Shown here piece by piece: positions 18,828 to 38,732 of a DNA stretch of 61,176 nucleotides. Under the pieces are notes generated by a model that saw only the letters and a list, made by a program, of their open reading frames with translations, had not been told where the DNA came from and did no database searches. How positions within the stretch are numbered: position 1 is the stretch's first letter; every line of letters starts with the position of its first letter. The position numbers and the translations under genes are program-made. The DNA comes from an uncultured Ignavibacteria bacterium (GTDB taxonomy: Bacteria; Bacteroidota; Ignavibacteria; Ch128b), in NCBI GenBank assembly GCA_937944105.1, contig CALDZP010000078.1, forward strand, positions 1 through 61,176, given 5' to 3'.

Positions 18828-19759
18828 CTTTCAACAAAACTTCCTTCAATAGCTTTTCTTACAAATCCTTCACTTAATTTTAATCTTCTTACTGCTTCTT
18901 CATATGAAACTTTTGCCAATATCATCACAAGAGCTGTTTTAACATTACCCTTTGCTTCTCTCAAATACTTTTCAGCTTCATCATAAGAAACCCCAGTAAT
19001 AATCATAACAATTCGTTTTGATCTTTCAACAAGTTTTTGATTGGTCATTTGTAGATCAATCATCATATTTTCATATACTTTGCCAATTCTAATCATTGCA
19101 GTGGTTGTAATCATATTAAGAACTAATTTCTGAGCGGTTCCGCTTTTCATTCTTGTAGAGCCCATAATTACTTCAGGACCGACTTCTGGACAAATTGCTA
19201 CATCAACTTCTTTGATATTAAAATCCTTTCGAGGATTTGTAGTTAAAAAAACAGTTCTAGCTCCCAGCTCTTTTGCCTTTTTAATTGCTCCGACAACATA
19301 AGGGGTTCTACGGCTTGCAGCAATTCCCACGACAGTATCTTTAGAACATACATTAGCCTTAATGACATCATTTGCTCCATTTTCTTCTTTATCTTCTGCA
19401 CCTTCCTGGGCGACAAAAACGGCTTCTTTTCCACCTGCTATAAATCCCTGTACCATTTCAGGTGGCGTTCCAAATGTTGGTGGACATTCTGCAGCATCTA
19501 CTATCCCAAGTCTCCCGCTCGTTCCAGCACCAAAGTATAAAAGTCTGCCACCTTTTTTAAATGATTCAACAACAAACTCCACAGCTTGTGCAATGTAAGG
19601 GATCTCTTTTTCTACTGCATATGCAACTTTTTTATCCTCTTCATTAATTATTTTTAGAATTTCTATTGTACTTTTTGAATCGATATCCATGCTATTTGGA
19701 TTTCGTTGTTCTGTGAGAAGGTTTTTAATTTCTTCAAATACCTTCTTGTTTCCTTCCAT
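18824..19759 (-). CDS. murQ: N-acetylmuramic acid 6-phosphate etherase
   Basis: MurQ cleaves the lactyl ether of MurNAc-6-phosphate to give GlcNAc-6-phosphate and lactate, a step in recycling cell-wall sugars. The 311-residue protein starts with MEGNKKVFEEIKNLLTEQRN and carries the SIS-domain sugar phosphate motif LYFGAGTSGRLGIVDAAECP, with the catalytic Glu in DAAECPP. A second signature is STRMKSGTAQKLVLNM. The C-terminus has UBA-like helices. It overlaps rsmG by 26 bases and mfd by four. No MurNAc phosphotransferase or AnmK kinase is seen in the window, so the source of its substrate is not evident here. Confidence 0.96.
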   Translation of the reverse strand: MEGNKKVFEEIKNLLTEQRNPNSMDIDSKSTIEILKIINEEDKKVAYAVEKEIPYIAQAVEFVVESFKKGGRLLYFGAGTSGRLGIVDAAECPPTFGTPPEMVQGFIAGGKEAVFVAQEGAEDKEENGANDVIKANVCSKDTVVGIAASRRTPYVVGAIKKAKELGARTVFLTTNPRKDFNIKEVDVAICPEVGPEVIMGSTRMKSGTAQKLVLNMITTTAMIRIGKVYENMMIDLQMTNQKLVERSKRIVMIITGVSYDEAEKYLREAKGNVKTALVMILAKVSYEEAVRRLKLSEGFVRKAIEGSFVES

Positions 19760-20426
19760 TAATCCACTCCACGATTATGATGTATTTTTTATTGATGTTA
19801 TCTGGATTTTCTGGTAGATATATTAATGGGATTTTTTTTACTGCAATATAATCAAAAGATTTTTTTGCTTCTGCGATTTCATTCTCTAAATTATCGCCTC
19901 CCTTCATCGTTGCGAGTATTGAAAATTTATTCTTTAAAAGTGGCTTTGAATAAAAAATCAAAGTTTTTAAATCTGCAGTGGCACGTGAGATAATTAAATC
20001 AAATTTTTTCTTGTATTTTTTTACAAAATTTTTATCCTCAGCACGTGTCCATAAAAGTTCAACATTGTCCAATCCAACAAATTGGACAATTTCCTTCAAA
20101 GCATTGATTTTTTTCCCAATAGAATCAATCAGTGTAATGCGACTTTTTGAATTGATGATTGCAAATGGAATACCTGGGAGTCCACCCCCTGTTCCAATGT
20201 CCAAAACATCCCGTTCGATATTTTCGAACATTGTAGAAAAAATTAAACACGGTATAATATGCCTTTCAAGTATATTTTCTTCATCCTTTCGAGATATTAA
20301 ATTTAATTTTTTGTTAAATTTTAATAATTCTTGAGCGTAACTTAAAATTATATTAATTTCTCTATTTGCAAGAGACAAGCTATTAATCTTCAAAAGATGC
20401 GACAATTCTTGTTCTAAAATTTTCAC
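19734..20426 (-). CDS. rsmG: 16S rRNA (guanine-527-N7) methyltransferase RsmG (GidB)
   Basis: RsmG methylates G527 of 16S rRNA using S-adenosylmethionine; loss gives low-level streptomycin resistance in other bacteria. The 230-residue protein has the SAM-binding motif VLDIGTGGGLPGIPFAI (residues about 67-83) and the catalytic-region segment LIISRATADLKTL. The start codon is GTG, and this GTG is part of the CACGTG core of the palindrome at 20420-20433. It lies 10 bases after mnmG, the classic gidA-gidB pairing found near chromosome origins. It overlaps murQ downstream, where many bacteria have parA-parB instead. Confidence 0.96.
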   Translation of the reverse strand: MKILEQELSHLLKINSLSLANREINIILSYAQELLKFNKKLNLISRKDEENILERHIIPCLIFSTMFENIERDVLDIGTGGGLPGIPFAIINSKSRITLIDSIGKKINALKEIVQFVGLDNVELLWTRAEDKNFVKKYKKKFDLIISRATADLKTLIFYSKPLLKNKFSILATMKGGDNLENEIAEAKKSFDYIAVKKIPLIYLPENPDNINKKYIIIVEWINGRKQEGI

Positions 20427-20433
20427 GTGAAAA
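20420..20433. other. parS-like palindrome, copy 1 (rsmG/mnmG junction)
   Basis: TTTTCACGTGAAAA is a perfect 14-bp palindrome with the CACGTG core and AAA/TTT flanks of the ParB-binding site parS (consensus TGTTTCACGTGAAACA). The outer G/C of the consensus is replaced by T/A. It spans the GTG start of rsmG. An identical 14-mer lies at 22306-22319, on the other side of mnmG. Confidence 0.6.
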
Positions 20434-20436
20434 AAA

Positions 20437-22293
20437 TTATTTTAGATGAACTAAAAGAATTGACAGGTCAGTAATTCTTATACCTGAAATGCGACTCGCC
20501 TGTCCAAAAGATGTAGGCCTAATCTTTTCAAGTTTCTCTCTGCTTTCCATCGAAAGCGCTTTTATTTTAGAATAGTCAAAGTTCTTTGGGATTAAAATAT
20601 TTTCGTTCTCTAAAAATTTCTGGATATCCTCGTTCTGACGTTTAATGTAACCTTCATATTTTAATTCGATTTCAGCCTGGAAAATCGCTTCATCTTGTAA
20701 TTTTTTATCATCAATGAACTTGAATTCAGAAATTTTTAATAATTCATCCAGCTTTATATCTTTTCTTTTGATAAGCTTTGAGATCGATTCATTTTGATCT
20801 ATTTCAGATGTCTCATATTTCCGCAATAAGTGATTTACTTGCTCTGGTCTTAAGTAAGTTCTGTTTGACCATTCAATAATTCTCCTAATTTCACTTTCTT
20901 TATTTTGAACTCTTTCATAAGCCCATTTTGGAATTAAACCAAGTTCATAGCCATATTTCATCAATCTTCTATCGGCATTATCTTGTCTTAAATTTAATCT
21001 ATATTCTGCTCGAGATGTAAACATTCTATATGGTTCATCTGTACCTTTATTGACCAAATCATCAATTAAAACCCCAATATAAGCCTCGGAACGTTTAAGA
21101 ATAAGTGGATCTTTACCTAAAATTTTTAATGCAGCATTTATCCCAGCCATAATGCCTTGAGCTGCTGCTTCTTCGTAACCAGATGTTCCATTAATTTGAC
21201 CTGCAAAATATAATCCTTCAACAATTTTTGTTTCAAGTGTTAATTCAACTTGATATGGTGGGAAAAAATCATACTCTACAGCATAACCAGGTCTAACCAT
21301 CTCTACTTTTTCAAGTCCTGGTACAGTTCTTAACGCTTTTAATTGAATATCCGCAGGTAGACTCGAAGAAAAGCCATTTACATAAATTAAATCTGTGTTC
21401 AGTCCGTCTGGTTCAAGGAAAAGATGATGTCGTTCTTTATCGTTAAAACGATAGATCTTATCTTCAATTGACGGGCAATATCTTGGTCCAACACCTTTTA
21501 TAATACCTGTGAACAATGGGGAATCAACAAATCCCTGCCTTAAAATATCATGCGTTCTTTGATTTGTATATGTAATGTAACAGGAGACTTGAGGTAAAGA
21601 ATAAGATGTTGTTAAGTAGGAGAAGAAAGATGGAGGATCATCACCTTTTTGTTCTTCCATAACTGAAAAATCAATGGTGTTTTTATTTAATCTCGGAGGA
21701 GTACCTGTTTTTAATCTGCCACTAACAAATCCAATTTCTTGTAACATCTCAGTGAGTCCAGTAACTTTTGGCTCTCCGTATCTTCCCCCTTCTGTTTGAA
21801 CTTTGCCAGTAAACATTTTTGCATTAAGAAATGTCCCGGCAGCAATAATAACAGCTTTTGAATAAATATTAATACCATTAAATTCAATTCCCATAATTTT
21901 AAAATCTTTTATTAAAATTTTCGTAACAATTCCCTCAAGAATATCGAGATTTTGAATTTCGGACAAAAGTTCCAACGCCACTTTAGAATATAATTCTCTA
22001 TCATTTTGGGTTCTCGGTGACCAAACAGCCGGGCCTTTAGATCTATTAAGCATTTTAAATTGAATTGCTGTTCTATCGGCAATCTGCCCAATAAGTCCAC
22101 CTAATGAATCAATTTCTTTAACCAGGTGACCTTTTGCAGTTCCACCAACCGCCGGATTGCAGGACATTCGACCTATTGCGTTTTTATTCATAGTTACAAG
22201 AGCCACTTGCAATCCCATATTGGCAGCGGCAGCCGAAGCCTCAATCCCTGCATGGCCACCACCAATTACTATAACATCATATCTTTCTTTCAT
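20437..22293 (-). CDS. mnmG: tRNA uridine 5-carboxymethylaminomethyl modification enzyme MnmG (GidA)
   Basis: With MnmE this FAD protein installs the cmnm5 group on wobble U34 of several tRNAs. It has 618 residues. The FAD-binding motif is [19 protein letters not shown] at the N-terminus. Family signatures are [20 protein letters not shown] and [12 protein letters not shown], and [18 protein letters not shown] sits near residue 370. The C-terminal GidA-associated domain ends with [17 protein letters not shown]. It lies between mnmE (27 bases upstream) and rsmG (10 bases downstream). Identical CACGTG palindromes lie in both junctions. Confidence 0.97.
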
Positions 22294-22305
22294 ATTTACT
22301 CTAAT

Positions 22306-22319
22306 TTTTCACGTGAAAA
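22306..22319. other. parS-like palindrome, copy 2 (mnmG/mnmE junction)
   Basis: This is the same perfect 14-bp palindrome, TTTTCACGTGAAAA, as at 20420-20433. It fills the short gap between the mnmE stop and the mnmG start. Two identical sites 1.9 kb apart in the mnmE-mnmG-rsmG cluster fit origin-proximal parS sites; an operator or promoter role is the alternative. Confidence 0.6.
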
Positions 22320-22320
22320 T

Positions 22321-23676
22321 TTATTTACCTATGCAAAATCTTGAAAATATTGAATTTAAAATTTCTTCTGATGTTATCTCACCAGTTAATTCTTTCAATG
22401 AGTTAGCTGCTTTCCTAAGATCTAATGTAACAAATTCATTAGATTGATTTTGTTTAAGACTGATAATTGCATTTTCAAGGAATTCTTTAGCATTCTTCAA
22501 TGCATTAAAATGTCTTATGTTTGAAATGACCACTACATCCTCAGAATATAAATTATATTGATGTATGTAATTTCTAAACAATTCAAATAGTTTATCAATT
22601 CCTTCGCCAGTTTTGGCAGAAATTAAAATTAAATCTTCTTTAAGTGATAATTTATCTTTAAAATTTTCATCGATCGTATCAATTTTATTTACAACTTTAA
22701 AGACCTGTTTATTAGATGTATCGATATCGAAATGGTTCAAAGTTTCCTCGAAAAAATCAGGTTCAACAAGATGTATGATTATATCGGCTTTTTCAATTAA
22801 TTGAAGTGCTCTTTTAACACCTTCTTCTTCAATTACATCAGTTGACTTTCTTAATCCAGCTGTATCAAAAAATCTGAATAGAGTTCCATCGATAAAAATT
22901 TCCTCCTTAATTATATCTCTTGTTGTACCTGGAATATCACTTACTATTGCTCTATCGCTATTTAAGATTTTATTTAAAAGACTTGATTTACCAACATTGG
23001 GTTTACCAATTATCAAAACATTAATACCTTCATATATCATTCTTCCTGTTTGAAAAGTAGAAAGTAGTTGAGAAATTAAACTAATAATATTTTCTATTTT
23101 CTCTGTTAATAATTGCTTTTCAACAAATTCGATATCATCTTCTGCAAAATCCAATTCGAGTTCAAGTAGTCCAATGACTTCGACCAGGTAATCTTTTATT
23201 TCCTTGATTTTATCGGATAAAATACCGTCCAATTGTTTTCGAGCGCTTTGTACAGCAATGTCCGAACGAGATCGAATAATTTCGGACACTGCCTCAGCTT
23301 GTAATAGATCTATCTTACCATTTAAAAAAGCTCTTTTTGTGAATTCGCCTGGCTCTGCCAGTCTAACACCGTTATCAATTAAAATTTGTAGAATTTTTCT
23401 GGTTATCAAGAAATTTCCATGATGAGAGATTTCAATTGAATCCTCTCCTGTATATGAATGGGGCTTACGAAAAACAGAAACTAAAACATCATCTATATTA
23501 TTAACCAATCGACCATAATAAATTCTATGAGTTTGAGAATTTGAAATCTTATGCTTGCCTAAAAAAATTTTATCTCCTACTTCGAGTGCCTTCGGACCAG
23601 ACACTCTTATAATTGAAATTGCGCCTACCCCATAGGCAGTTATTGTTGCACAAATAGTATCTTCATTTTTTATCAT
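22321..23676 (-). CDS. mnmE: tRNA modification GTPase MnmE (TrmE)
   Basis: MnmE is the GTPase partner of MnmG in wobble uridine modification. The 451-residue protein has the N-terminal tetrahydrofolate-binding domain (DTICATITAYGVGAISIIRV), a helical domain, and an inserted G domain around 215-375 with G1 GKPNVGKSSLLN, G2 PGTTRD, G3 DTAG and G4 NKID. It ends with FCIGK, keeping the C-terminal cysteine motif C-[LIVMF]-GK required for activity. It is the first gene of the long leftward run and is divergent from the DUF3109 gene across 106 bases, which must hold both promoters. Confidence 0.97.
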   Translation of the reverse strand: MIKNEDTICATITAYGVGAISIIRVSGPKALEVGDKIFLGKHKISNSQTHRIYYGRLVNNIDDVLVSVFRKPHSYTGEDSIEISHHGNFLITRKILQILIDNGVRLAEPGEFTKRAFLNGKIDLLQAEAVSEIIRSRSDIAVQSARKQLDGILSDKIKEIKDYLVEVIGLLELELDFAEDDIEFVEKQLLTEKIENIISLISQLLSTFQTGRMIYEGINVLIIGKPNVGKSSLLNKILNSDRAIVSDIPGTTRDIIKEEIFIDGTLFRFFDTAGLRKSTDVIEEEGVKRALQLIEKADIIIHLVEPDFFEETLNHFDIDTSNKQVFKVVNKIDTIDENFKDKLSLKEDLILISAKTGEGIDKLFELFRNYIHQYNLYSEDVVVISNIRHFNALKNAKEFLENAIISLKQNQSNEFVTLDLRKAANSLKELTGEITSEEILNSIFSRFCIGK

Positions 23677-31886: not shown

Positions 31887-32918
<1,032 letters not shown>

Positions 32919-32935: not shown

Positions 32936-33733
32936 TTATTTAGCTGCGTATTTCCACCAGTAGAAATATTTTGTTTCTAACTCTTCAATTGAAGGCATTG
33001 GATAAAAAACCATTTCATCACCATCAACAAACCAGAATCCATGACGAATAAGAGCAAACGATATATCTTTTAGGACAGAACCAAGACTTATCGTTTTTGT
33101 AAGCTTTTCAGGATTTGCTTTGAGTTCTTCTATACATTCTTTAACTCTATATGGATTTACATTCGGAATAGCACATGTAATTATTGCTTTCCCTTTATTT
33201 TCTTCAAAAAATTTATCAATATTAAAATCAATTTGAGTAAAAAGAATTTTAGGTGCACCTTTTGATCTGGTTCCTCTTGTTATCCATTTTCCAAATTCTC
33301 TTTGATCAAGTGTGGAGGCAACAAGAGTTTCAAGTGGACAAATTTCCTGATATATTCTTATCAAACCAGGCTGATTTATAGCAGTGTATTCACCTTTTTC
33401 AAGAGGGAGAGCTTTTCCATTTGGATGTACCAGATACATATTTTTAAGAACATTCAAAGGTACATGTTCAAGTACAGCATAAGAACTTATAAATTTAGTT
33501 CTCTTTGGTCTTCCAGTAACAGGATCTGGTTTTGTTTCTTCAAGATATTTATCGATCTCAAAGTATGGATCTCTGAAATTTATGTCTAGCTCTACAAAAA
33601 TTACTTTTCCGCTATAATGTTTTGTACTTCCAACTGCATAGTGCAATCCAAAATCCTCTGGTTCTAATTGTGAAGCTACTAATGCATTAATTGGAAATAC
33701 AATCATATATAAATGTTTTGGATAGTCTTGCAT
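32936..33733 (-). CDS. Conserved protein with an internal duplication, upstream of gapA
   Basis: I do not recognise a named family for this 265-residue soluble protein. It contains two related halves: residues 12-50 (FPINALVASQLEPEDFG, then KVIFVELDINF) and about 130-175 (CPLETLVASTLDQREFG, then KILFTQIDFNI). Both share [P]-x-[LEN]-LVAS-x-L-x-x-x-[ED]-FG, a G-S/R-S/T-K segment and a beta strand ending in D-[IF]-N. A C-terminal segment, ALIRHGFWFVDGDEMVFYPMPS, is aromatic-rich. A good ribosome site (GAGGT) precedes the ATG. Its pairing with GAPDH hints at a role in central metabolism or its regulation, but the sequence does not say what. Confidence 0.65.
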   Translation of the reverse strand: MQDYPKHLYMIVFPINALVASQLEPEDFGLHYAVGSTKHYSGKVIFVELDINFRDPYFEIDKYLEETKPDPVTGRPKRTKFISSYAVLEHVPLNVLKNMYLVHPNGKALPLEKGEYTAINQPGLIRIYQEICPLETLVASTLDQREFGKWITRGTRSKGAPKILFTQIDFNIDKFFEENKGKAIITCAIPNVNPYRVKECIEELKANPEKLTKTISLGSVLKDISFALIRHGFWFVDGDEMVFYPMPSIEELETKYFYWWKYAAK

Positions 33734-34123
33734 AGTTTACCTCATCGTAAATATTATTAATTGTTTTACAAAGTTATTAATAATCTTTTGGTATATCAAT
33801 TTATATTTAGCACCTTTTTTCTATTATGTTATTCTTATATTTTTAAGTAGAATTTAAAAGAGTAGTAATAATAATTATGTGTATTTGTGGAAAAGTATTT
33901 TTATTTAAATATATCTTAACAAAAAGAAAAACTTTATTAACATTTAAATGTTAGATTATTGGACTAATCCACTTTTTTAAATTTTTAAGTTGTAAATTGA
34001 TTTTTTTTATTATTTATCAACATAAATTCACAAAATATCAACATGATTTTTAGGAGTTATCCACAGTTTATCTACTAAAATTATCTTTAGAGTTGTGAAA
34101 AAATTCTAAAATTTATTAAATGA
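33734..34123. other. AT-rich gap with DnaA-box cluster, candidate replication origin
   Basis: This 390-base gap separates the divergent-free minus-strand genes for the conserved 265-residue protein and the histidine kinase. It holds three sites matching TTWTNCACA: TTTTCCACA (33886-33894, minus), a perfect TTATCCACA (34057-34065, plus) and TTTTTCACA (34094-34102, minus). A one-mismatch site, TTATCAACA, lies at 34014-34022. Long A/T runs between them could serve as an unwinding region. By base composition such boxes should be rare in so short a stretch. No dnaA gene is adjacent, so this is a candidate only. Confidence 0.5.
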
Positions 34124-35548
34124 TCAGTTAAAAAATATTTGTACAGTAAAGTAACCTAATTCATCGCTATCAATTTTGATATCAAATTTGTGAAGATCAA
34201 TTAGTTGTTTTACAACAGCCAGACCTAAACCAACACCACCAAGACTTCTGTTATGTGATGTTTCTATTCTATAAAATCTTTCAAATAGTTTCGGGATTAA
34301 TTCTTTAGGAATAGGTTCGCTTTTGTTTTTTATGTAGATAGAAATTTTTCCATGGTAATCTTTTTGACAAAGAATTAATATATCACTACCATAATCACCA
34401 TATTTTATTGCATTATCAATTAGATTAATAAAAATTTGTTTTAAAATCATGGGATCTGCATCAATCAAAAAATTGGAATTAGAATAATTTGTAATAAGCT
34501 TTATATTTTTTTCGTTGGCAAAAAATTTAAAATCCTTTACGATTCCTTCAATTAAATCCACGAGATTAACTTTTTCAAGATTTATCTTTATGAGAGCATT
34601 ATCAAGTTTTGTAATAAAGAATAATCGTTCAATAATATTTATTAGTCTAAGAGTTTCTTCATAACTACTTTTAATTATTTCTAAACATTCTTCTCTTGAT
34701 TTGGGATATTTTATTGCGAGTTCCAATTCACCTCTGAGTATTGTTAATGGAGTTTTTAACTCATGAGAAGCATTGATTGTAAATTGGTTCATATAATCCA
34801 TAGAACTTTTAATTCTTCTTATCATTCTATTTAAAGTTTTTACAAGCCTTCCATATTCATCATCATATTCTTCTCCATCCAGTAAAGTATTCAGGTTGTT
34901 AGTGTCAATTTCATCAGTACGTTTAATTATTTTATCAATCCTATTTAGAGCTTTAAAGGAAAGGAAAAAACCTCCTATAAATGAAAGCAGAAGGAATAAA
35001 GGTGTAACTATGATATATAAATTTGTCAATTCATTTAAAGTTTTTGAAATATATTCTAAAGGGAAAGCCACAATAATTTTATAATTATCTTTGTCAAAAG
35101 AATAAGCACGAATTGGATATTTTGACAACTCTGGTATGTAATATTCAAAGAGAGTATTTGAGTTTTGAATTAAATCAGTTTTTAGAGTAATATTTCCGAG
35201 ATTAGTTGTACGAAAAACGATTTTGTTATTTATTGAAACCTGTACAAAAGTATTGTTAGGATTGAAAGCCAAGGCTTCGAAAATTATATCATAAATTAGT
35301 TCATCTGTTGTTGAATAGATTGAATCTGGTTCAAATTCAAAAAGATTAACTTTACTATCCTTAACAAAATTATAAATTGTTTTTGCTTGTTTTTTTAGAG
35401 AATAATCCAACTCTTTCCTCATAGTGTGGTCAATATAAACATAGATAACTGCCCCAAAAACAACTTCAAGGATAAAGAAAATGGCGGTATACCAGAGGGT
35501 TGTTTTAAATCGGGTGCTCTTTAAATATTTTTCTAAATTAAATAACAT
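34124..35548 (-). CDS. Two-component sensor histidine kinase
   Basis: This 474-residue inner-membrane kinase has a first membrane helix near 15-37 (TTLWYTAIFFILEVVFGAVI), a periplasmic sensor domain of about 130 residues, a second helix near 178-200 (YIIVTPLFLLLSFIGGFFLS), a HAMP linker, the phospho-acceptor motif NASHELKTPLTILRGEL, and the ATPase domain with N-box FINLIDNAIKYGDYG and G-box GGVGLGLAVVKQLIDLHKF. It would phosphorylate the response regulator encoded eight bases upstream. The layout matches CusS/QseC-like kinases that sense envelope or metal stress, but the ligand is not readable from the sequence. Confidence 0.92.
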   Translation of the reverse strand: MLFNLEKYLKSTRFKTTLWYTAIFFILEVVFGAVIYVYIDHTMRKELDYSLKKQAKTIYNFVKDSKVNLFEFEPDSIYSTTDELIYDIIFEALAFNPNNTFVQVSINNKIVFRTTNLGNITLKTDLIQNSNTLFEYYIPELSKYPIRAYSFDKDNYKIIVAFPLEYISKTLNELTNLYIIVTPLFLLLSFIGGFFLSFKALNRIDKIIKRTDEIDTNNLNTLLDGEEYDDEYGRLVKTLNRMIRRIKSSMDYMNQFTINASHELKTPLTILRGELELAIKYPKSREECLEIIKSSYEETLRLINIIERLFFITKLDNALIKINLEKVNLVDLIEGIVKDFKFFANEKNIKLITNYSNSNFLIDADPMILKQIFINLIDNAIKYGDYGSDILILCQKDYHGKISIYIKNKSEPIPKELIPKLFERFYRIETSHNRSLGGVGLGLAVVKQLIDLHKFDIKIDSDELGYFTVQIFFN

Positions 35549-35555
35549 TACTGGT

Positions 35556-36227
35556 TTAATAATCTTTTATCATATAACCGATGCTTCTAACTGTATAAAT
35601 TAACTGTTTATCAAAGCCTTTATCAATTTTATTTCGCAACTTGTTAATAAATACATCTATAACATTTGTTCCAGTATCAAAATTAAAGTCGTAAATATGT
35701 TCGGTTAATTTTGCTCTTGAAACGACTTTATTCTTATTTCGCATAAGATATTCGAGGATAGCATATTCTTTTGGGGTTAGAAAAATTTGTGTATTTTTTC
35801 TGAGGACTTTATGTGTTTGAGTGTCCAAAATTAAATCACCGGCTTTGAGGATATTATCCTCATCAACAGATTTTCGACGCAAAATAGCTCTGATTCTTGC
35901 CAATAATTCATCAAAAGAAAACGGTTTTGCAAGATAATCATCTGCTCCTGAATCAAGTCCAATAACTTTATCTTTAATTGAATCTTTTGCAGTAAGAATT
36001 AGAACTGGTGTTAAAATTTTTTCTTGTCGAATTTCTCTGAGGATAGAAAGACCATCTTTGTATGGTAACATTAAGTCCAAAATAATAAGATCATAATCTT
36101 CGTTTAAAGCAAAATGTAATCCTTCTTTTCCGTCGAATGCTAAATCAACAGAAAAATACTCTGCTTCAAGCCCCTTTTTTATAAAAGAAGCGACCTTTTT
36201 TTCGTCCTCAATAACTAAAATTCTCAT
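35556..36227 (-). CDS. OmpR/PhoB-family response regulator
   Basis: This 223-residue regulator has an N-terminal receiver domain starting MRILVIEDEKKVASFIKKGL with the acidic pair ED, the phospho-acceptor Asp in DLIILDLMLPYKDGL (near residue 51), a Thr in LILTAKD and Lys in YLAKPFSF. The C-terminal winged-helix domain includes ILDTQTHKVLRKNTQIFLTP and VIDVFINKLRNKID. It pairs with the histidine kinase gene downstream. Upstream is a gene for a small Lys-rich secreted protein, separated by a terminator-like hairpin, so the two-component genes may depend partly on read-through. Confidence 0.94.
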   Translation of the reverse strand: MRILVIEDEKKVASFIKKGLEAEYFSVDLAFDGKEGLHFALNEDYDLIILDLMLPYKDGLSILREIRQEKILTPVLILTAKDSIKDKVIGLDSGADDYLAKPFSFDELLARIRAILRRKSVDEDNILKAGDLILDTQTHKVLRKNTQIFLTPKEYAILEYLMRNKNKVVSRAKLTEHIYDFNFDTGTNVIDVFINKLRNKIDKGFDKQLIYTVRSIGYMIKDY

Positions 36228-36244
36228 ATTGTAAAAATAAAAAA

Positions 36245-36269
36245 AAGGAGAGATATAAAATCCCTCCTT
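36245..36269 (-). terminator. Terminator or attenuator between the basic secreted protein and the two-component genes
   Basis: AAGGAGAGAT (36245-36254) and ATCCCTCCTT (36260-36269) pair with one mismatch around a 5-base loop. On the minus strand the hairpin is followed by a T-rich tract (TCTCC then TTTTTTTATTTTT). It lies about 26 bases after the stop of the 106-residue gene and about 18 bases before the response regulator start. Confidence 0.75.
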
Positions 36270-36295
36270 CTTGTTTTCAAATTAAAGATAAACGC

Positions 36296-36616
36296 TTATT
36301 TTTTTTCGGCTTCCTTTTTTGACTCCTTTTCTACATGCTTTTTCATTGGCACCTTATTAACCGGCGTTGTTTTCTTTTCATTCTCTTTTGTGGACTTCAC
36401 TTCACTTTTTTTCGGACTCTCAACTTTTACATTTAGGTTTCCAGTATTAGTCTTTTCAGTAGTTTGAAGCGAACCTTGTTCGACTTTTTGCTCGGATTGT
36501 TTTAGATTCTTGTGAGTTGCTTTAACTGTTTCTTTATTTTGCGAATATAGAACAGTACTCACAGAAAAAGTTAGTACGATCATTATTGTTGCGAGTGAAA
36601 GAATAATGGATTTCAT
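36296..36616 (-). CDS. Small secreted lysine-rich protein
   Basis: This 106-residue protein matches no family I recognise. Residues 1-26 form a signal peptide (MKSIILSLATIMIVLTFSVS followed by TVLYSQ). The mature part is very polar: Lys, Glu, Thr, Ser and Gln rich, without cysteine, and probably disordered, ending KKHVEKESKKEAEKK. It is encoded immediately upstream of a response regulator and kinase on the same strand, separated by a terminator-like hairpin. It could be a periplasmic target or partner of that two-component system, as CpxP-like proteins are, but there is no sequence similarity to CpxP visible. A 724-base gap without recognisable genes lies upstream. Confidence 0.6.
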   Translation of the reverse strand: MKSIILSLATIMIVLTFSVSTVLYSQNKETVKATHKNLKQSEQKVEQGSLQTTEKTNTGNLNVKVESPKKSEVKSTKENEKKTTPVNKVPMKKHVEKESKKEAEKK

Positions 36617-37340
36617 AATAAGATCTCCTTTTTGTTTTGGTTGTTAATTAATTTATTAAAGAACTAAAGTTTACGATTCAAACTTATGACTGAATTATTA
36701 AAGTGAAATTAATTTTAGATTAAAAAAAATTAATAATTGAGACTTTGTTTTTATAAAATTTAATGGAATAAATTGAATGAGTTCGCATTTAAAGTTATTT
36801 CTGTTTAAATGAGGAAAATTAAATTCAAAAAAGCGAGATCTGTTTATTGTATACAGGAGGATTTGAAAATAAAATAGTTAGAAAAAAAATATTAATACAA
36901 TTGCGATTATATTCTACCATTACATAATATCTTTTAATCCAATAGTAGAATTCATAATAAGTCCTTTTGGATAGTTTAAAGATGAAGAAGCATATATAAG
37001 TTCATTGATGTTCAATACTATTATTATATCAATTTATAATTAACTCCCATTTTTAATTTTCATTACTGTTGTTTTATAAGAGTATATCAAATCATTAATA
37101 GTAATAAATGTGTGAATTTGTAAGTAATGTTTATCAGTATAAATAACAAAAAAATCATATTGGCAATTCCAGAATGAATTATTTTACCAATTCACATCAA
37201 TTTGATTTATTCACATATCATATAATTAAATCATTTAAATTTGTAAAGAGAAATTGATTCTTAAATGACTTTTAATAAAACTTTAAAATCACTTTTTAGT
37301 TATAGGGATAAAACATCAAAAAATAAAGTGAGAGGTAAAA
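36617..37340. other. Long AT-rich intergenic region without a recognised gene
   Basis: This 724-base stretch separates the divergent genes for the basic secreted protein and fumarase. It is highly AT-rich and has no open reading frame of useful size. It contains one DnaA-box-like TTATTCACA (37207-37215) and an orphan AGGAGG near 36856-36861 followed by only a few codons. Promoters for both flanking genes must lie here, and an undetected small RNA cannot be excluded. Confidence 0.5.
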
Positions 37341-38732
37341 ATGGATTACAGAATCGAAACCGACAGCATGGGCGAAATGAAAGTTCCAAACGATAAATAT
37401 TATGGTGCCCAGACTGCAAGATCTTTGATGAATTTCAAAATCGGTGGCGAAAAATTTCCACCAGAATTTATCAGAGCATTGGCAATTGTAAAAAAAGCTG
37501 CTGCACTTACAAACAAAGAGCTTGGAGTTTTATCTGCAGAAAAAGCTGATTTAATTGTAAAAGCTGCTGATGAAGTAATTGAAGGAAAACTTAATGATCA
37601 TTTCCCGCTCGTGATCTGGCAAACAGGTAGTGGAACACAGACAAATATGAATGTGAATGAAGTAATTGCAAATCGAGCAATTGAAATGGCTGGCGGTGTA
37701 TTGGGGAGTAAAAAGCCAATTCATCCGAATGATGATGTTAACAAATCTCAATCAACAAACGATGCATTTCCAACAGCAATGCATATCTCTGCTGTTGAAG
37801 AAATTCATAGAAGATTAATTCCAATGGTAACAAAGTTGAGAGATGCGCTACAGCAAAAAGCAGAGGAATTTAAAGATATAATCAAGATTGGTAGAACTCA
37901 TTTGATGGACGCAACACCACTTACTCTCGGTCAGGAATTTTCAGGATATGCTCAACAACTTACAAATGGGCTTGAACGGATAAACGGATGCTTAACAAGA
38001 CTTTACGAAATTCCTCTCGGTGGAACAGCTGTTGGCACTGGTTTGAATTCTCATCCAAAATATGCAGAAAAGGTTGCGGAAAAAATTTCTGAGATTACAG
38101 GAAAACCATTTAAGACAGCAAGAAACAAATTTGAGGCAATGGCAGGAAAAGATGCGATGGTTGAATTACATGGTGTACTTAAAACTCTTGCAGCTTCATT
38201 AATGAAAATTGCAAATGATATTAGATGGCTTGCATCTGGTCCAAGATGTGGAATTGGTGAAATTAATATTCCTGAAAATGAACCTGGTAGTTCGATAATG
38301 CCTGGAAAGGTCAATCCAACTCAATCAGAAGCTATGACAATGGTATGTGCTCAGGTATTTGGTAATGATGTAACAGTGAATTTTGCCGGAGCCAGTGGAA
38401 ATTTTGAACTGAATGTCTTCATGCCTGTAATAATTTTTAATGTTTTGCAATCGATCAGGTTACTTGCTGATGCTTGTGAAAGTTTTACTGTTAATTGTGT
38501 TGCTGGCATTACTCCAAATTATGATAGAATAAAAATGCATCTTAATAATTCGTTGATGCTGGTTACAGCACTTAATCCAGTAATAGGTTATGACAATGCT
38601 GCAAAAGTCGCAAAGAAAGCACATAAAGAAAATAAAACACTGAAAGAAGCCGCTGTTGAACTCGGACTTCTGACACCTGAAAAATTTGATGAAGTTGTTA
38701 GACCAGAAAAAATGATAGGACCAAATCTCTGA
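37341..38732 (+). CDS. fumC: Fumarate hydratase class II
   Basis: FumC interconverts fumarate and malate in the TCA cycle and needs no iron-sulfur cluster. The 463-residue protein opens [20 protein letters not shown] and has substrate-binding motifs [17 protein letters not shown] and [20 protein letters not shown], the catalytic histidine segment [20 protein letters not shown], and the superfamily signature [16 protein letters not shown]. The ATG follows GAGAGG. The gene stands alone and ends at a bidirectional terminator shared with the convergent tRNA-Lys. Confidence 0.97.

Follow-up and report, generated by a model that had tools for sequence, protein, structure and literature searches.

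In Melioribacter roseus, a member of the Ignavibacteria, the origin is a 303-bp gap between dnaA and dnaN, with DnaA boxes at a switch in GC skew (PMC3534657). In Bacillus subtilis and many other bacteria, oriC contains a basal unwinding system (BUS), that is, a DnaA box, a spacer whose length peaks at 10–13 bp, and at least three DnaA-trios, with AT-rich DNA beyond (PMC8287927). The locus described here, an AT-rich gap in the genome of an uncultured Ignavibacteria bacterium, shares features with both. Like the origin of M. roseus, which represents a related lineage of the Bacteroidetes/Chlorobi group, it has DnaA boxes at a GC-skew switch, and like the BUS, for which a spacer of up to 16 nt is accepted, it consists of a box, 11 nt, and four trios. 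Unlike the M. roseus origin, however, it is on a contig that carries neither dnaA nor dnaN, and unlike the B. subtilis BUS it is situated away from dnaA, just one weak sequence resembling a second box is present in its spacer, and it is known from sequence. Bacteria do not commonly have their origin far from dnaA, yet there is precedent. The oriC of Escherichia coli does not adjoin dnaA and lies near mnmG (gidA), and mnmE, mnmG, and rsmG are often close to bacterial origins. E. coli has a different box array, and its mnmG is immediately adjacent rather than 12 kb away as it is here.

We propose, with a probability of roughly 0.87, that the gap at 33734–34123 is the chromosomal replication origin and that it is located apart from both dnaA and dnaN. 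A preliminary description had put this gap forward as a candidate oriC, and the proposal is supported by a skew switch in a congener, by boxes retained in congeners, and by a motif that is unique in the genome.

The window, meaning the whole stretch of 61,176 nucleotides that was analysed, is contig C78 of a 2.74-Mb genome in 96 contigs that is 99% complete. Based on MnmG, the closest named relative is Ignavibacteria bacterium SKW60 (90%). The genus is represented by three genomes, the window's own (G000) and two congeners (G001 and G002); G003–G005 are family members and G044 is a class relative. All genes at 0–23.7 kb, including mfd, murQ, rsmG, mnmG, and mnmE, point leftward, as had been stated previously. 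They are followed by a rightward series (DUF3109, rpoN, PPIC, hslV, and hslU) and a leftward series (TPR, DUF2721, gapA, and orf265) that ends at the candidate gap. To its right are a histidine kinase, a response regulator, and a small ORF, all leftward, and then a second gap, beyond which fumC and an ABC export block point rightward. The acrB-cydA-rrf2 block (0.8–11.5 kb in the window) and the tetR-ABC block (39.1–46.2 kb) adjoin in G002, at 1.453–1.470 Mb; in the window the whole nhaA-fumC origin segment separates them. Feature positions are collected in table 1.

Table 1. Features of the window in and around the proposed origin
Feature	Position	Strand	Remarks
Proposed oriC, AT-rich intergenic gap	33734–34123		18% GC; kept in two congeners
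DnaA box TTTTCCACA	33886–33894	-	TTWTNCACA match
Likely fourth DnaA box TTATCAACA	34014–34022	+	Within 26 bp that match G001 at 92% identity
Perfect DnaA box TTATCCACA	34057–34065	+	TTWTNCACA match
DnaA box TTTTTCACA	34094–34102	-	TTWTNCACA match
Likely DNA unwinding element	33774–33923		Least stable 150-bp stretch of window; overlaps trios
Putative basal unwinding system, TTTTCCACA-N11-TTATTATTACTA	33863–33894	-	Box 33886–33894, spacer 33875–33885, trios 33863–33874
orf265, conserved left neighbour	32936–33733	-	Then gapA, 31887–32894
Histidine kinase, response regulator, 106-aa ORF	34124–36616	-	Absent from gap in G001 and G002
Second gap, decayed copy of origin DNA	36617–37340		37025–37121 73% identical to first gap
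fumC, right neighbour of origin gap in congeners	37341–38732	+	
parS-like site	20419–20434		3' side of mnmG; TTTTCACGTGAAAA
parS-like site	22305–22320		5' side of mnmG; TTTTCACGTGAAAA
mnmE-mnmG-rsmG	19734–23676	-	

DnaA boxes and the unwinding motif

The gap is 390 bp long, is bounded by ORFs at 32936–33733 and 34124–35548 (both on the minus strand), and has a GC fraction of 0.18 versus 0.24 for the intergenic DNA of the window. The preliminary description had reported three TTWTNCACA matches, one of them perfect, within 217 bases of this gap and had estimated that far fewer than one would be expected by composition. The boxes and their span of 217 bases are exact, and Markov simulations of matched composition give 0.08–0.19 strict boxes per 390 bp, with a probability of at most 7e-4 for three or more. 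The sequence TTATCAACA on the plus strand is a likely further box that had been missed. Across the whole window the box total is at chance level (12 versus 11.4 expected), and the signal is therefore the clustering of the boxes. The gap thus offers the intergenic DnaA-box cluster looked for in a bacterial oriC and also the AT-rich, easily melted element; by nearest-neighbour energy, no 150- or 300-bp stretch elsewhere in the window is less stable. The DnaA protein of this genome has GGRDHTTVIHA, the usual signature of the box-recognition helix. The presence of boxes is not by itself proof of an origin; dnaA has a denser cluster upstream.

Following an 11-nt spacer, the trios in the gap read TTA TTA TTA CTA (33874–33863, minus strand). 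When TTWTCCACA-N11-(YTR)4 was sought in 61 whole genomes, one mismatch at most being allowed, the only match in the 2.74 Mb of the window's genome was the one in the gap, TTTTCCACA AATACACATAA TTA TTA TTA CTA. The sole match in G001 falls in the orthologous gap (TTATCCACT ATTTCACACCC TTG TTG CTA CTA) and that in G005 between dnaA and dnaN (TTATCCACA AATCCACGTGC TTA TTA CTA TTA). G044 has a zero-mismatch match, which was located relative to dnaA and lies just downstream of it (TTATCCACA TATCCACACTA TTA TTG TTA TTA). Class-level genomes have six further matches with one mismatch each, and G044 accounts for one of these as well; no dnaA is nearby in L174 or L175, the two of the six that were examined. 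A reversed-pattern control gave two matches across the 61 genomes, and in a looser scan of 877 kb of DNA the matches were confined to the gap, the orthologous gap of G001, and the dnaA-dnaN gap of G005. Degenerate forms are found in G002, where the motif fails the strict pattern (ATTTCCACA ATTAAACCTCA TTA TAT TTA CTA), and downstream of dnaA in G003 (ATTTCAACA AATCAACATGC TTA TTA TTA TAC).

The motifs of G005 and G044 have the same box-N11-trio layout as that of the window, but theirs are beside dnaA whereas the window's is between orf265 and fumC. The G005 motif shares 67% identity with the gap across 48 bp, which is higher than in any of 2000 shuffles. This similarity fits common descent, although it could also reflect convergence on a functional motif.

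Conservation of the gap and strand asymmetry

Comparison of the gap in related genomes was among the checks suggested at the outset, and the boxes proved to be conserved in both congeners (2/2). There, orf265 and fumC point away from a single gap of 475 bp (G001) or 445 bp (G002) that carries the TTATCCACA and TTATCAACA boxes. The earlier description of a location between a GAPDH-linked gene and a two-component system calls for correction: what is conserved beside the gap is orf265/gapA on one side and fumC on the other, the two-component system having been inserted locally. No Pfam or NCBIfam match was found for orf265, and its identity within the family is 81–95%. In G003–G005 orf265 is kept and the boxes beside it are not, and the gap upstream of fumC contains no box cluster in G003 or G005. 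A search for an alternative origin in G004 found none; its TTATCCACA sites are scattered and the strict motif is absent.

Judging from gene order in the congeners, the two-component genes are a lineage-specific insertion, and the best relative of the kinase in G002 (57%) is encoded at 2.018 Mb. The second gap is 73% identical to the first over 99 bp (E 4e-8, score 7.6 sd above shuffles) and retains four trios and an 11-nt spacer (37096–37127, minus strand) while the primary box is lost. We read it as a decayed copy of the first, and therefore the kinase cassette lies between two copies of origin DNA.

GC skew, the other check that had been suggested, was read in the 2.65-Mb contig of G002, using tiles that cover ~1.0 Mb. 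Skew is mostly negative to the left and mostly positive to the right of ~1.4 Mb. Since raw GC skew alone places the minimum of the cumulative curve at ~1.43 Mb, ~28 kb beyond the gap on its right-hand side, we adopted a model of codon-3 skew that allows a single switch and includes gene strand as a covariate. The best switch is at 1.390 Mb with an interval of 1.390–1.445 Mb (55 kb), which includes the orthologous gap at 1.4004 Mb; a switch at the gap itself falls short of the best fit by 2.2 log-likelihood units. Omitting the switch is 72 units worse, and forcing it to dnaA (1.879 Mb) or dnaN (1.068 Mb), both far inside the arms, is 41 or 44 units worse. Thus, the negative-to-positive switch that characterizes an oriC falls at the orthologous gap in this congener and not at dnaA, and that gap is the only cluster of at least three boxes in ~260 kb around the switch. 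In the window's own genome, where skew covers this contig and most of C34 among the 96 contigs, the model puts the switch within the window at 32 kb, so that 1.7 kb separate it from the gap, a rough estimate from ~47 genes. Skew around the dnaA-side origin of G044 is too weak to read.

The pair of parS-like sites noted previously at a distance of 12 kb is real and conserved, lying 12–14 kb to the left of the gap, because TTTTCACGTGAAAA flanks mnmG on both sides in G000, G001, and G002, and TTTCACGTGAAA sites are present in many of the mnmG loci examined from other Bacteroidota, mostly beside mnmG. The parB gene of G002 (C1:218455) is near the opposite skew switch (~0.2 Mb), far from these sites. 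In Cytophagales and relatives, a large DnaA-box cluster is found ~2.5 kb downstream of mnmG (L101, 14372–14765), with similar clusters in L088, L093, L099, L089, L100, L070, and L080 (up to 11 boxes in 400 bp); these are likely the origins of those organisms. Chitinophaga sp. YR627 has seven DnaA boxes in ~450 bp upstream of mnmG (L095, 5382–5829).

Other candidate locations for the origin

As had been stated, dnaA is not near the gap: it is absent from C78 and is located on C34 (at 88292), ~60 kb from dnaN (at 148759). Neither gene, therefore, adjoins the gap in the manner of M. roseus. The two genes are 0.8 Mb apart on opposite strands in G002 and adjoin each other in G003 and G005. If the true origin were instead the box cluster upstream of dnaA, the gap would be a secondary DnaA-binding site. 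That cluster (C34:87584–87825; L001, 793–1026) comprises four TTATCCACA and one TTTTCCACA, extends into dnaA, and packs perfect TTATCCACA boxes more tightly than any other site in the genome. Similar clusters occur across the family, and each of the five f1 genomes where dnaA was located has one upstream of that gene. Box density as the sole criterion ranks the cluster first and was insufficient for choosing among the candidates. No trio motif is present at the cluster, no skew switch occurs on C34 within ~80 kb on either side of dnaA, where skew is mostly positive throughout, and dnaA of G002 is 479 kb inside the right arm, all of which make an origin at dnaA quite improbable. Because g2 genomes with a motif between dnaA and dnaN have the same cluster too, it is better read as something else: probably it serves autoregulation of dnaA or is the upstream half of an origin that used to be bipartite. 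A TTATCMACA-rich stretch elsewhere in the genome (C3:23143–24184) is spread over 1 kb and failed the density test.

We give similarly little weight to an origin in another gap nearby, such as one close to mnmE or, in G002, one at a distance of ~30 kb, with the boxes here serving DnaA-regulated transcription of orf265 or the kinase. The 55-kb width of the G002 skew interval and the position of its raw minimum would accommodate such an origin, but neither the window nor the ~260 kb around the G002 switch has another cluster of at least three boxes, the genome has no second motif match, and the congeners that keep the boxes have no kinase in the gap. That the boxes are a functionless chance cluster in AT-rich DNA, as their chance-level count over the whole window might suggest, is barely credible given that they hold their position in two congeners, that the motif is unique, and that a skew switch is present. 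Counting against the gap itself as oriC are the denser cluster upstream of dnaA, the degenerate motif of G002, the offset of the raw skew minimum, the 2.2-unit shortfall in log-likelihood, the small genus sample of three genomes, and the absence of the boxes beside orf265 in G003–G005.

Proposed initiation and separation from dnaA

Under the proposal that the gap is oriC, DnaA would bind the boxes at 34014–34102 as well as that at 33886–33894, and the latter would guide DnaA over the spacer onto the single-stranded trios. The AT-rich DNA on the orf265 side would then melt, the helicase would load, and replication would proceed bidirectionally, with the parS sites at mnmG serving segregation. 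Given that distant relatives have the motif just downstream of dnaA, we infer that the unwinding module has been separated from dnaA and dnaN in this genus; the simplest reading of the genomes compared is that the downstream unwinding half of an old origin is no longer with dnaA. A more elaborate history, which we regard as unlikely, is that in this genus the unwinding half of a bipartite dnaA origin relocated between orf265 and fumC while the upstream cluster stayed, and that in this species it was later duplicated around the two-component system. The regulator of that system may then influence initiation, and the origin would be split into a full copy and a weakened one.

The gap provides a concrete candidate origin for a genus of Ignavibacteria that is known here from genome assemblies only. 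A single family appears to include both an origin between dnaA and dnaN and one free of both genes, with the same unwinding motif, and a prediction method that depends on dnaA would put the origin here in the wrong place. This family may thus represent a natural case for understanding how bacterial origins leave dnaA and which parts must travel.
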